Positions 3,372-8,494 of a stretch of 64,000 bases of DNA are shown one piece after another. The position numbers were made by a program, and so were the translations under genes. Each line of letters begins with the position of its first letter. The stretch's first letter is position 1. Origin of the DNA: Thermoplasmataceae archaeon (GTDB taxonomy: Archaea > Thermoplasmatota > Thermoplasmata > Thermoplasmatales > Thermoplasmataceae); assembly GCA_038729425.1 (NCBI GenBank), contig JAVYSB010000002.1, forward strand, positions 1-64,000, read 5' to 3'. The notes under the pieces are model-generated. The model searched no databases. It saw only the letters and a list, made by a program, of their open reading frames with translations, and was not told the origin of the DNA.

Positions 3372-3824
3372 ATGGAACTAACGGTAGGAATGGAAGCTCC
3401 GGATTTTGTGTCCGCGGATCAGATGGGGAGAGAGGTCAGACTCAGCCAGTTCAAAGGCAAGCCTGTTGTGCTGTACTTTTATCCCAAAGATGACACTCCA
3501 GGCTGCACAGTGGAAGCTTGCAACTTCAGGGACAATAACGAGGAATTTGAGAAGAAAGGGGTCAAGGTTCTTGGCGTGAGTGTGGACACACCGCAATCAC
3601 ACAAAAAATTCCAGGACAAATTTGGGTTGAATTTCACGCTTGTTGCCGATCATTCAAAGGAAATTTCCCAGAAGTACAACGTCCTCAGTGGTTCAACTGC
3701 GAGACGGGTGACTTACATAATTTCCAAGGATGGCAAAGTAGCCCATATATATCCAAAGGTAACCCCGAAAGATCACGCAACTGAGGTAATGTCAAAGCTA
3801 AGAGAGCTGAAACTCATCTCCTAA
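3372..3824 (+). CDS. bcp: Thioredoxin-dependent thiol peroxidase, Bcp/PrxQ family
   Basis: A 150-aa peroxiredoxin that reduces peroxides at a cysteine thiol. The motif YPKDDTPGCTVEAC gives the peroxidatic Cys45 and the resolving Cys50 five residues later, typical of the PrxQ/Bcp subgroup. The conserved Thr42-Pro43 and a C-terminal Arg in the ARRVTYII strand complete the site. Full length for the family and cytoplasmic. The ATG at 3372 follows an AT-rich TATA-like stretch (CTAAATAATAAA at 3331-3342). Electrons could come from thioredoxin or from the disulfide oxidoreductase encoded at 11372-12031 (inference). A second, different peroxiredoxin lies 0.8 kb downstream on the other strand. Confidence 0.95.
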   Translation: MELTVGMEAPDFVSADQMGREVRLSQFKGKPVVLYFYPKDDTPGCTVEACNFRDNNEEFEKKGVKVLGVSVDTPQSHKKFQDKFGLNFTLVADHSKEISQKYNVLSGSTARRVTYIISKDGKVAHIYPKVTPKDHATEVMSKLRELKLIS

Positions 3825-4648: not shown

Positions 4649-5344
4649 TCATTCTTTTTTTGGTTTTACAAACTTTCGGGCTTCCTTCACTTCCTCTTCA
4701 GGGATTTCCTTGTATGTGAGCCACCAGGCAAACCCCTTGTACTGCTGCATTCTTGTCTTTGAATCCTTCACGTTCCTAGGAGGTGGGTTGATCACGTTCT
4801 CGCCCATTATCTCGTTGCTTGGCCAGTTTGCTGGGATCGCTGCCTTATATTTGTCCGCCATTTGCAAAGCCTTTATCGCCCTCAACAGTTCGTCAACGTT
4901 TCTGCCAATCTCAAGGGGGTAATACATTATGAGTCTGACAATTGAGTTAGGGTCAACAATGAATACAGCTCTTACCGTGGAAGCTGAGGACTCCGCATGA
5001 AGCATGCCCATCCTGGTGGCTACTCTTCCCATGGCATCTCCAATTATGGGAAACGGAACATGTATCTTCAGGTTTGCTTCTATCCAGTTGATCCATTCGA
5101 TGTGACTTATGGTGCTATCCACAGACAGGCCTATGAGCTCAGTGTTCAGTTTCTGGAAATCTTCGTATCTCTTGGAAAAAGAGAAGAATTCCGTGGTGCA
5201 TACAGGTGTGAAGTCTCCGGGGTGGCTGAAAAGCATAAACCACTTTCCCTTGAATGTATCTGGAAGTACCAGCGCACCCTGTGTTGTATCTACATTTAAT
5301 TCCGGGAATTTCTCTCCTATCAGTGGAAACTTGTTTTCATCCAT
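4649..5344 (-). CDS. Peroxiredoxin of the Prx6/AhpC2 type, single-cysteine form
   Basis: This is the large archaeal peroxiredoxin type (about 230 aa) that reduces H2O2 and alkyl peroxides. The peroxidatic centre [14 protein letters not shown] is intact, with Cys50 (numbered from an upstream ATG), Thr47 and Pro48. The C-terminal arm (about 170-232) is present, but where many archaeal homologues have one or two Cys the sequence reads [10 protein letters not shown]. Cys50 is the only cysteine in the protein, so it must work as a 1-Cys enzyme. Two adjacent ATGs occur at 5347 and 5344; the GGTGA Shine-Dalgarno sits one base from the first and four from the second, so 5344 is preferred. Confidence 0.93.
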
Positions 5345-5472
5345 CATTTCACCACTTTGTTATTGCCTTGCGAGATATACGCTTATTGATTTATGGATAA
5401 GGTAATATATCATAGAGAAAGCGCAGGGCGCACTTCAAATGGTCGTCAATAATACCATGCCCCTATTTCTAT

Positions 5473-5551
5473 CTATAAATAAATCAGACCTCAGATATTA
5501 TGGTCATTTTCCTTATGGAGTTGCTGTATAATACAATGGAAAAGGGGTAAT
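5473..5551 (+). promoter_or_regulatory. Promoter and Shine-Dalgarno site of the cyd operon
   Basis: A TATA element CTATAAAT at 5473-5480 is followed about 60 bases later by AAAAGGGGTAAT (5540-5551), a purine-rich ribosome site a few bases before the ATG at 5557. Both sit in front of the small membrane ORF and not in front of cydA, so the small ORF appears to be the first cistron. Confidence 0.45.
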
Positions 5552-5556
5552 GGACA

Positions 5557-5730
5557 ATGCACTGGGAAGCATTGGGGGTAACCGTTGTAATCCTCATAGC
5601 AGTTTCGTTGATTTTTTACGCGAGACGCAGAAATCGGAAATTAATTGGCATAATCCTGCTGTGGGAAGGTTTTGTTGACTTTGCCTCAATTAATAATATG
5701 ATGGGAGTGAAAAAACATGTCAATGGCTGA
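5557..5730 (+). CDS. Small membrane protein overlapping cydA (candidate oxidase small subunit)
   Basis: An ORF of 57 codons starts at the ATG at 5557 and ends with TGA at 5728-5730, overlapping the cydA start (5717) by 14 bases in another frame. It encodes a short lead (MHWEALG), a clear hydrophobic helix (VTVVILIAVSLIFYA, about 8-22), a basic stop-transfer cluster RRRNRK, and a second weakly hydrophobic stretch (LIGIILLWEGFVDFA). The arrangement mirrors bacterial CydX/CydS-type small subunits of bd oxidases, although I see no sequence identity with them. A Shine-Dalgarno site precedes it. It could alternatively be a translational coupling leader for cydA. Confidence 0.55.
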   Translation: MHWEALGVTVVILIAVSLIFYARRRNRKLIGIILLWEGFVDFASINNMMGVKKHVNG

Positions 5731-7078
5731 TTTTGACCGGTTTCTATTTGCCTATACCATAGGGTCACACATAATACTGGTCTCTGCAAGTATAGGCTTG
5801 ATCTTATTGATAGCAATCCTTGAGATAATGAATTCAAGGAAGAAAAATCCAAATTACGATATTCTCCTTGGCAGGCTGAAGAAGATATTCGTTATTTCAT
5901 TTGGAGTAGGAACGGCGAGCGGCATAGTAATGGCCGTGGAACTGATCAACCTCTTTCCTACATTCATGACTCTAGTTTCGGAAACCGGGGTTATAGCTGC
6001 GTTCTATGCCGAGATATTCACGTTCTTCCTGGAGACCATTGCGCTGGTAATGTATGTATACTATGATGGAGTTTTCAAGTGGAAGTATACAAATATTGCG
6101 CTATCACTGACCATTGCAGCAGGGACAATCCTTTCTGCTGTATTCATAACTATGGTCAATGCTTGGATGAACACTCCAAACGGCTTCAATATTACGACAT
6201 ACCTGAGCACCGGAACTGTTACTGGCGTGAACCCGTGGGCTCCATTTGCAACCGTGTCAACGTTTCCTGAGATTGCTCATGTGGTCACAACAACTGTCTT
6301 CGCCGGGATGATGATGCTGGGAGTATTCTTCGCTATCAAGTATCTGAGGGCACGGGAAGCGGGAGAAAAATCCCTGGCCGTCTCGGCGTTGCACATCATC
6401 GGCGTAGTAAGCATCATAGACATTGTTCTCGTTGGGATTTCCGGGAGCCACGAGATGTCTACCGTACTATTACAGCAGCCATTAAAATACGCCGCGTTTG
6501 ATCTCAATTATCTGCCTGGATCAAACATGCCGGAGAGACTTTTTGGATCGCTGGTTAACGGCAACGTGATTGGCGCAATTACCATTCCTTCAGTGCAGAG
6601 CCTTCTGGCTGGGCTCGAAACCAACGTATCCATTTTACCCGGATTAAGCACCTACCCGCAGAGTCTGTGGCCGCCGCTTATGATTCATACAACGTTTGAT
6701 ACAATGGTGGTTGGGGGCCTGCTGATTGGTCTCTACCTCTTCATAATGTTCCTAATGTTTGTGCTGAAGAAGGACCCAATTCAGTACAGAGCCATGATAA
6801 TACTGCAGATAATCGGTGGAATATTTGCCTTCATAATATACGAACTTGGCTGGGTAACGGATGAGGTCGGAAGACAGCCATGGATTGTCTATAATGTGCT
6901 CACGGTAAACAATGCCATAAATCCATCAACGGCCCTGTTGGTGCCTGGATTCTTCATAGTGGCCTTTTACCTGGTCATTGTTCCGGCTACATTCTACTTT
7001 TTCTCAAGGATATACAGCTCGCAGAAGATTCCTAAAAAAGCTGAAAAATCACTGAACCAAGGGGGTGTTAACTATTAA
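5717..7078 (+). CDS. cydA: Cytochrome bd-type quinol oxidase subunit I
   Basis: Subunit I carries the haems and the quinol site of the terminal oxidase in the cytoplasmic membrane. The 453-aa protein has about nine hydrophobic helices. Visible landmarks are the N-terminal His of SHIIL (about residue 16, haem ligand position), the helix with acidic residues FYAEIFTFFLETIAL (about 96-110), the His of FPEIAHVVTTTVF (about 186-198), and the hallmark GWVTDEVGRQPW (about 377-388). A long periplasmic Q-loop lies between. The ATG at 5717 overlaps the preceding small ORF; an ATG at 5723 is an alternative. The stop overlaps cydB. Menaquinol from the mqn pathway in this window is the likely donor. Confidence 0.93.
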   Translation: MSMADFDRFLFAYTIGSHIILVSASIGLILLIAILEIMNSRKKNPNYDILLGRLKKIFVISFGVGTASGIVMAVELINLFPTFMTLVSETGVIAAFYAEIFTFFLETIALVMYVYYDGVFKWKYTNIALSLTIAAGTILSAVFITMVNAWMNTPNGFNITTYLSTGTVTGVNPWAPFATVSTFPEIAHVVTTTVFAGMMMLGVFFAIKYLRAREAGEKSLAVSALHIIGVVSIIDIVLVGISGSHEMSTVLLQQPLKYAAFDLNYLPGSNMPERLFGSLVNGNVIGAITIPSVQSLLAGLETNVSILPGLSTYPQSLWPPLMIHTTFDTMVVGGLLIGLYLFIMFLMFVLKKDPIQYRAMIILQIIGGIFAFIIYELGWVTDEVGRQPWIVYNVLTVNNAINPSTALLVPGFFIVAFYLVIVPATFYFFSRIYSSQKIPKKAEKSLNQGGVNY

Positions 7079-8018
7079 CGGCATATTCTACCTCAATTTC
7101 CTTGTCTTTGGCATATTTGCTGCGCTTCTCTGCACAGAAATCATGGGAGCCGTGGTCCTGATTGTGTGGTGGAACAAATACAGAAAACCCGTCCTGGAGT
7201 ACATTATTCCCATATGGGAAATAACAGGCACTTTTGGTGCGTTCTGGGTGGTACTCTCTGATTTTGCATTTCCTGCCATAATAAACCCTCTTGCTGGGCT
7301 CTATGCAGCCGCGATCATGCTGTTTCTCATTCTCTTCGTTGCTAGAAATGCATCAATAGCCTTCGGGGAGTACATAATAAAGAAGGGCTGGCTTGACGAA
7401 AGGAAACTTTACACAATCTATGCCTTTGTAACACTGCTAATCGGAATTGTGGTTTTGTACATACTTTCCGGGGTTATTGGCGGATATGGCGTTAATATGA
7501 CTGATCTTAACGTGAATCTGGCCGCGTGGTTCTCTCATCCAGCAGATATCCTTTTCATTTTAGGTGCTGTAATCATCTTGCTTGGCCTCGCTCCTGTGTT
7601 TTTTGGGGTGAGGGAACTGGCAAATATGTCTCTGCTATTCACCACTGTCGGCGTTGTGATTTCCGCCATTACTGTATACCTGTTCGAGGGGAGTGGCATA
7701 TCCCTTATGGTCATAATCCCGATAATACTGACACTTGCCCCGGCGATCCTCTTCAGGTATGGCCAGTTGGTTCAATTCTTGACAAATAAACTGTTCTTCA
7801 TAATCTGGCTGACGGTTGACCTGTTCTTCCTGAATTTCATGGTGTACCCCAGGGCATTCGGGCAGTCTCTCGCGGTGGATTCTCTGACTACCAGCGGACC
7901 AATGGTGTACGCCTATTTCATCATCACACTGATAGGTGGAATAATACTTGCCGTTCTAATAGCGCTTTTTTCTGTTGCGGTGTCCAGAAAGAGGAAGATG
8001 CAGAACACATCCAGCTGA
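7065..8018 (+). CDS. cydB: Cytochrome bd-type quinol oxidase subunit II
   Basis: The 317-aa, almost wholly hydrophobic protein with about eight or nine helices is the structural partner of CydA. The early motif VLIVWWNKYRKPVLEYIIPIWEITGTFGAFWVV resembles CydB N-termini. The start is GTG at 7065, preceded by GGGG as ribosome site and overlapping the cydA end by 14 bases, so the two are translationally coupled. Identification rests mostly on position and topology, because subunit II is poorly conserved. A basic C-terminus (SRKRKMQ) marks the inside. A gene-free stretch of 400 bases follows. Confidence 0.85.
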   Translation: MLTINGIFYLNFLVFGIFAALLCTEIMGAVVLIVWWNKYRKPVLEYIIPIWEITGTFGAFWVVLSDFAFPAIINPLAGLYAAAIMLFLILFVARNASIAFGEYIIKKGWLDERKLYTIYAFVTLLIGIVVLYILSGVIGGYGVNMTDLNVNLAAWFSHPADILFILGAVIILLGLAPVFFGVRELANMSLLFTTVGVVISAITVYLFEGSGISLMVIIPIILTLAPAILFRYGQLVQFLTNKLFFIIWLTVDLFFLNFMVYPRAFGQSLAVDSLTTSGPMVYAYFIITLIGGIILAVLIALFSVAVSRKRKMQNTSS

Positions 8019-8422
8019 TCAATTTTCGGGACCTTCTGGTCAAAATAATCAAATTCTTTCTTTTCTTCAATATTTTCTCACCGCTGGATAGTCTAGATTA
8101 CAGAAGCAGTTTAATATAATATCTATCTGGAGAAGTCAGACGGATACTCGATTTGAATGTATTGGCTGGTGACGTTGCTTAATGAACGGTTCAGACGACT
8201 CATGATGTCGCAATAAATACACGTGTTCGTAATGCTATTTCTTTCTTATATTCACAAAGTTTCTCAAATGCGAGAAATCGAATTCTGGTGCTCTTACAAG
8301 AGATCATGGATACTAATGTTTTCGCGAAAACATTTCTCTAGACATATGCCTAAATTTAGGACTTTTTCTTAATTTTAAGATTAAATTCCTCCAGCGGGTC
8401 AAATCCCACTGTTTCTAACAAA
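8019..8422. other. Gene-free stretch with four palindromes between cydB and tRNA-Thr
   Basis: No convincing ORF on either strand. Between 8260 and 8379 four inverted repeats follow each other: TTTCTC-n6-GAGAAA (8260-8277), a perfect 20-bp palindrome (8315-8334), CCTAAATTTAGG (8349-8360) followed by ACTTTTTCTT, and CTTAATTTTAAG (8368-8379). The third, with its T-run, could end cyd transcription. GCGGGTCAAATCCCACTG at 8394-8411 looks like a tRNA T-arm, but no tRNA body precedes it. Confidence 0.6.
8315..8334. repeat. Perfect 20-bp palindrome
   Basis: AATGTTTTCGCGAAAACATT is self-complementary over all 20 bases, with CGCG at its centre. It could be a dimeric regulator site or a hairpin. It lies about 300 bases behind cydB and about 90 bases beyond the 3' end of tRNA-Thr, in no gene. 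Confidence 0.85.
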
Positions 8423-8494
8423 GCCACTGGAGGGATTTGAACCCCCGACCTGCTGATTACAAGTCAGCTGCTCTACCACCTGAGCTACAGTGGC
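8423..8494 (-). tRNA. tRNA-Thr (anticodon UGU)
   Basis: On the minus strand a complete 72-nt cloverleaf is read: acceptor GCCACTG pairs with CAGTGGC, a D arm with GGTGGTAGA, anticodon arm GCTGA-CTTGTAA-TCAGC with anticodon TGT, and T arm GGGGGTTCAAATCCC. There is no intron, and CCA is not encoded. Stems pair without mismatches, so it should be functional. Assignment to threonine (codon ACA) follows from the anticodon. Confidence 0.95.

Follow-up and report, generated by a model that had tools for sequence, protein, structure and literature searches.

To our knowledge, little has been described of third subunits or assembly factors for the bd oxidases of archaea. In bacteria, the third subunit of the enzyme (CydX, CydS or AppX) is a single-helix protein, and the roles of CydX and CydS have been reviewed (PMC8951039). 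A further subunit, CydH/CydY of E. coli bd-I, is a 3-kDa single helix of Proteobacteria (PMC8951039); in E. coli it is encoded away from the cyd operon. In excerpts from the papers on Mia14 (PMC5498576) and on Cuniculiplasma, the two large subunits are the sole components given for the bd oxidase. In this study, we analysed a small membrane ORF at the 5' end of cydA in a Thermoplasmataceae archaeon (assembly GCA_038729425.1); the window is the stretch of 64,000 nucleotides at the start of contig JAVYSB010000002.1. We found that the ORF is a derivative of a gene for a seven-helix membrane protein, here called f7, and not a functional full member of that family. The locus comprises the following features:

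4649–5347, minus strand: gene for an AhpC/1-Cys peroxiredoxin (PF00578, PF10417), divergent from the cyd genes
5474–5483, plus strand: putative archaeal TATA box, TATAAATAAA, proposed from sequence only
5544–5548, plus strand: Shine-Dalgarno-like sequence GGGGT, 8 nt 5' of the ATG of the small ORF
5557–5730, plus strand: ORF of 57 codons, derived by shortening from the cyd-linked seven-helix gene f7 (block homology)
5703–5709, plus strand: Shine-Dalgarno-like sequence GGGAGTG of cydA, within the small ORF
5717–7078, plus strand: cydA, bd oxidase subunit I, 453 aa, with the motif GRQPW (PF01654, E=2e-81)
7065–8018, plus strand: cydB, bd oxidase subunit II, 317 aa, divergent in sequence (PF02322, E=0.003, under the curated cut-off)

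The small ORF starts with ATG and encodes 57 aa (MHWEALGVTVVILIAVSLIFYARRRNRKLIGIILLWEGFVDFASINNMMGVKKHVNG). Its 3' end overlaps cydA (ATG at 5717) by 14 bases, the same length as the overlap between cydA and cydB. Residues 4–22 are strongly hydrophobic (mean Kyte-Doolittle value 2.3), and a weaker hydrophobic segment follows at residues 29–45 (1.85 over 17 residues). Sequence and hydropathy therefore bear out the preliminary description: the ORF is preceded by a Shine-Dalgarno-like site, encodes a single strong transmembrane segment and runs 14 nt into cydA. An AF2 prediction on the 57-aa sequence alone (single sequence, no partner chain) gave one continuous helix at residues 3–55 with a pLDDT of 82. 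No Rfam match was found in 5300–5800, and the sigma-70/terminator scan uses a model unsuited to archaea. Very probably, the small ORF belongs to the cyd operon. This operon classifies as a cytochrome bd quinol oxidase, with a CydA that carries PF01654 and GRQPW and an adjoining CydB, and its cydA is the sole copy in the genome. The CydB of the window is 53% identical to the products of cydA-adjoining genes in two other loci (L063 and L064); the Pfam subunit II model misses its cut-off for this protein although cydA-adjoining relatives are more than 50% identical. At the position of GGGAGTG, relatives carry GGGGGTG or GGAGGT. As for the surroundings, two peroxiredoxin genes lie by the operon, a Bcp-like ORF (3372–3824) and the AhpC/1-Cys type gene (4649–5347), which makes this an oxygen-stress neighbourhood, and a tRNA-Thr gene (tgt; 8422–8494, minus strand) is located downstream of cydB.

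The preliminary description had proposed that the 5' flanks of cydA in other Thermoplasmatales be searched for a conserved ORF in this frame. We compared cydA and the sequence 5' of it at 30 loci, of which 29 belong to related genomes. At nine of these (L002, L004, L006, L007, L009, L018, L027, L028 and L030) the same frame is open for 222–225 codons and stops 14–20 nt inside cydA. In two further genomes, the same-frame upstream ORF stops 14 nt (L063/L072) and 8 nt (L064/L074) inside cydA, and no full-length f7 was found upstream of cydA in L003, L005 and L008. Hence, the frame is kept in about ten Thermoplasmatales; its stop lies 14 nt inside cydA in the window and 8–20 nt inside it in those Thermoplasmatales relatives whose f7 is upstream. 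Conservation of the frame, the check first proposed, and the membrane nature of its product were confirmed, but the small size was not: the version in relatives is a protein of about 222 aa with seven helices, ending in ...AEFIGILLLWxGFVDF....

A profile of the full-length proteins of the relatives matched the small ORF with E=5.5e-12 when searched as a single target. The match consists of two collinear domains, residues 10–33 on the end of TM5 and residues 29–57 on the end of TM7 plus the tail. All 57 codons of the window ORF align to the 222 codons of L002 with two gaps only, of 135 and 30 codons, both in frame (222-135-30 = 57); 165 of the 222 f7 codons are missing from the window copy. The ORF is thus a collinear derivative of f7, in the same frame and in the same place relative to cydA, and is made of three blocks:

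5557–5601, plus strand: block 1 (aa 1–15), f7 start codon with the first half of TM1, placed by register-fixed score
5590–5640, plus strand: block 2 (aa 12–28), second half of TM5 (f7 residues 147–163) plus a basic stretch, placed by hmmsearch; its border with block 1 is uncertain by a few residues
5641–5727, plus strand: block 3 (aa 29–57), latter half of TM7 with the C-terminal tail (f7 residues 194–222), placed by hmmsearch

Block 1 reached a register-fixed score of 13.75, against -3.9 +/- 3.8 for shuffled sequences, and none of 20000 shuffles reached it. Control N-termini that scored above block 1 were all from f7 proteins, the best non-family control scoring 9.25. Moreover, V8, T9, I14 and A15 in this block are common to the window ORF and its sister L002. 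Block 2 was recovered by hmmsearch with a domain E-value of 6.7e-6; residues 12–28 scored 33 at the TM5 register, against 9.0 +/- 3.7 for shuffles (maximum 20.6), and the whole-genome profile match over this block spans 5581–5655. The ends of TM1 and TM5 are alike within f7 (VLISLSYL and LVISALSYL in L002, for example), and the TM1 end was considered as another origin of residues 12–28; it is less likely, with an offset score of 10.8 versus 33 for TM5. Block 3 (domain E=2.2e-10) retains all six of the family-invariant residues G196, L200, W201 and G203 and the near-invariant I197 and F204. Rare residues common to the window ORF and L002 are V8, A15, L194 and the tail GV[RK]KHV[HN]G. Direct DNA alignment of the ORF to relatives gave no information outside the last ~90 nt. 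Altogether, block homology and the whole-genome profile search described below rule out a chance ORF.

Of the seven helices of f7, the window ORF keeps only parts of TM1, TM5 and TM7, and the conserved residues E52, Y68, Y181 and E193 were lost with the deleted stretches. The first half of TM1 now runs directly into the latter half of TM5; each ends in basic residues, and from these charges the two would form a single helix in the original direction. In addition, a new Glu occupies f7 position 202 in the window ORF, in the middle of the old TM7. No charged residue is present there in any of 75 relatives, which points to relaxed constraint on that segment.

When a 75-sequence f7 profile was run against the whole 1.45-Mb genome, only two matches were obtained. 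Both are collinear segments of the small ORF, weak when taken singly (E 0.35 and 0.5), and no full-length f7 was found by this search of the assembly. The cydA tree pairs the window gene, as sister, with that of L002, which has full-length f7 (support 100/99), within a clade of seven loci with full-length upstream f7, one without, and the window. According to this tree, the shortening is derived and not ancestral. In the TM7 core that was kept, most differences from relatives are synonymous, a pattern that largely predates the deletion; dN/dS on the remnant has to be read with synonymous sites near saturation and a short form known from one genome only. Three congeneric genomes carry another cydA type, in a different clade and with about 49% identity to the window gene, and have no f7. 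The different clade suggests that the cyd operon was replaced or transferred within the family.

Neither Pfam nor NCBIfam gives a name to the intact f7. Its structure is confidently predicted to have seven helices (2–30, 33–56, 62–84, 90–113, 131–159, 163–182 and 186–204) with a pLDDT of 83. Two weak profile matches, to DUF7521 (2e-5 in 3 of 75 members) and to an ECF transporter (1e-3 in 13 of 75), were not accepted as its identity, and PDB sequence and fold searches returned nothing significant (Foldseek best E=0.033). A seven-helix bundle, as predicted for f7, is also found in GPCRs, microbial rhodopsins, 7TMR-DISM and HisKA_7TM; matches to such bundles were weak only (for 7TMR-DISM, E=2e-4 at best, among 3 of 75 members). 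None of the sequence or fold matches is significant, and nothing supports a receptor or light-driven function. The invariant columns of f7 contain no strongly conserved histidine or cysteine, which makes haem binding by f7 itself unlikely. No description of f7 was found in the literature searched, a set that excludes the key study of archaeal bd oxidases (Murali 2021); the family is new in the sense of not found rather than proven.

A scan of 84,980 species located f7 in archaea of several phyla, largely in MAGs of acidophiles. Carriers include Thermoplasmatota (with Ferroplasma acidarmanus and Cuniculiplasma), Micrarchaeota and Nitrososphaerota, as well as MAGs labelled Parvarchaeota, Nanoarchaeota and Marsarchaeota; among sampled Thermoplasmatota genomes, 31 of 293 have it. 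At 31 of 80 f7 loci, from Thermoplasmatota, Micrarchaeota and Nitrososphaerota, cydB lies at most two genes away. Here f7 is upstream in 16, directly downstream in 11, convergent in two and otherwise arranged in two, and the genes often overlap or are separated by a few bases. These gene orders differ and are scattered on the cydA tree, which argues for repeated linkage. One Thermoplasmata MAG has a pyridine nucleotide-disulphide oxidoreductase, possibly a quinone reductase, between cydAB and f7 (L078; L070:5603–6844). The second commonest neighbour is a bc-type cytochrome b (8 of 80 loci, gaps of -4 to 71 nt), with PF13631 in all six tested (best E 1.6e-16). In these eight loci (L089, L092, L102, L123, L125, L137, L147 and L081), all from MAGs labelled Micrarchaeota, f7 adjoins a ~490-aa cytochrome b of the bc1/b6 type and not cydAB. 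About half of the f7 genes adjoin neither cyd nor cytochrome b, and in this they resemble the gene of CydH/CydY; compared by description, f7 differs from that protein in having seven helices and being archaeal.

Among 61 relatives, f7 occurs only where cydA occurs (20 of 20; Fisher p=1.8e-8, and p=3e-5 for genomes at least 90% complete alone), although these p-values overstate the co-occurrence because the loci include near-duplicates and the genomes are related. On the other hand, full-length f7 is missing from 11 of the 31 cydA genomes among the relatives, the window included, and bd oxidase thus does not strictly require it. The linkage to two different quinol-oxidising b-type cytochromes suggests a role in a shared need, such as quinol or haem b handling or membrane assembly, and the location beside cytochrome b hints that f7 may serve b-type cytochromes in general. 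Judging from this genetic linkage, f7 most likely serves quinol-oxidising b-type cytochromes as an accessory subunit or in their assembly, and it is a good candidate for such a factor.

These observations can be brought together as follows. The ancestral operon would have had three genes, f7-cydA-cydB, with f7 in first position and tied to bd oxidase and, in Micrarchaeota, to bc-type cytochrome b. In the lineage of the window, most of f7 was lost through two deletions of about 135 and 30 codons, both in frame; what is left comprises the start, one composite transmembrane helix and a stop codon 14 nt inside cydA. The seven-helix function is thereby gone from this genome, and the remnant would most likely be translated as a leader whose terminating ribosomes feed the cydA start. 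Taken as a whole, it is probable that the ORF is an f7 remnant kept as a leader cistron coupled to cydA, f7 itself being most likely an accessory or assembly factor of the oxidase. The data show the homology of the ORF to f7, its collinearity, the derived nature of the shortening, the lack of a full copy in the assembly and the genetic tie of the family to cydAB; we infer the help that f7 gives to oxidases, the translation of the remnant and the coupling that keeps it. Coupling is preferred because the remnant retains what a leader cistron needs, namely a start site, a short frame and a stop in the cydA start. However, the Shine-Dalgarno site of cydA is itself good and coupling may not be needed; the short form occurs in one genome only, so that selection on it and its translation are presumed; and the kept frame and the six retained TM7 residues are also compatible with deletion at a very recent date or with a mini-protein that functions, the new Glu at f7 position 202 speaking to the contrary.

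Both a one-helix subunit and simple decay are close rivals of the coupled leader. The seven-helix partner may have been reduced to a single-helix peptide that binds CydA, resembling CydX or CydS by convergence and not by homology. We hold this to be unlikely, though it draws on the retained start, Shine-Dalgarno site, frame and one complete helix, on two deletions that are both multiples of three, on the intact set of six invariant or near-invariant residues in the TM7 half, on the continuous helix predicted by AF2 (residues 3–55, pLDDT 82, single sequence) and on the mostly synonymous divergence of the TM7 core. This last pattern was largely inherited from before the deletion and says nothing on the time since. 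The loss of the conserved E52, Y68, Y181 and E193, the charged Glu in the old TM7, the occurrence in one genome only and the lack of a CydX/CydS profile match also weigh against a mini-subunit. Scarcely better or worse placed is plain decay, in which recent deletions would have left a pseudogene with no present function as a protein or in coupling. Most of the gene is indeed lost, and f7 loss is common, since the gene is absent from the three other genomes of the genus and from upstream of cydA in L003, L005 and L008; yet 57 codons persist with neither stop nor frameshift, and two independent events would both be in frame by chance in about 1 case in 9. Also improbable is the combined reading that f7 is a genuine undescribed partner of bd oxidase and bc-type cytochrome b and was also reduced in place to a CydX-like peptide serving CydA, by convergence.

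Homology to CydX or CydS is a different matter. The preliminary description had drawn the parallel with these subunits, and the window ORF does share with CydX, CydS and AppX its small size (57 aa), one strong helix and a place in the cyd operon, overlapping cydA; if it were a subunit, it would sit beside CydA as they do. Unlike them, it lies upstream of cydA, derives from a seven-helix protein and has no sequence match: Pfam and NCBIfam gave no match for the ORF, and the CydX model used as the CydX/CydS profile test, PF08173 (YbgT_YccB), had no match above cut-off in the whole genome, its best (E=0.67) being elsewhere than the ORF. Its intact relatives, the 222-aa seven-helix proteins of the f7 family, are several times larger than CydX, CydS or AppX, and the ORF differs from them in no longer having seven helices. 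An archaeal CydX/CydS homologue is thus scarcely credible. An assembly artefact, with a full-length f7 really present and collapsed by the assembler, is very unlikely. The similarity between the TM1 and TM5 ends could mislead assembly, but the ORF has two separate, precise in-frame joins and the window sits on a 280-kb contig. Furthermore, the space 5' of cydA is bounded by the divergent peroxiredoxin gene and measures only 369 bp, into which the 222 codons of f7 would not fit.

The window copy reveals how an f7-type gene can shrink to a small ORF overlapping its neighbour, one that would readily be taken for a new small protein. Through this ORF, the intact f7 was found, and it represents a concrete, testable candidate for a bd oxidase partner common to Thermoplasmatales and their Micrarchaeota partners. 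According to excerpts from its description, the Micrarchaeote Mia14 has a bd oxidase and no genes for making quinone or haem (PMC5498576). For this reason, f7, a membrane protein with genetic ties to both bd oxidase and cytochrome b, is of interest for the assembly or supply of such enzymes.
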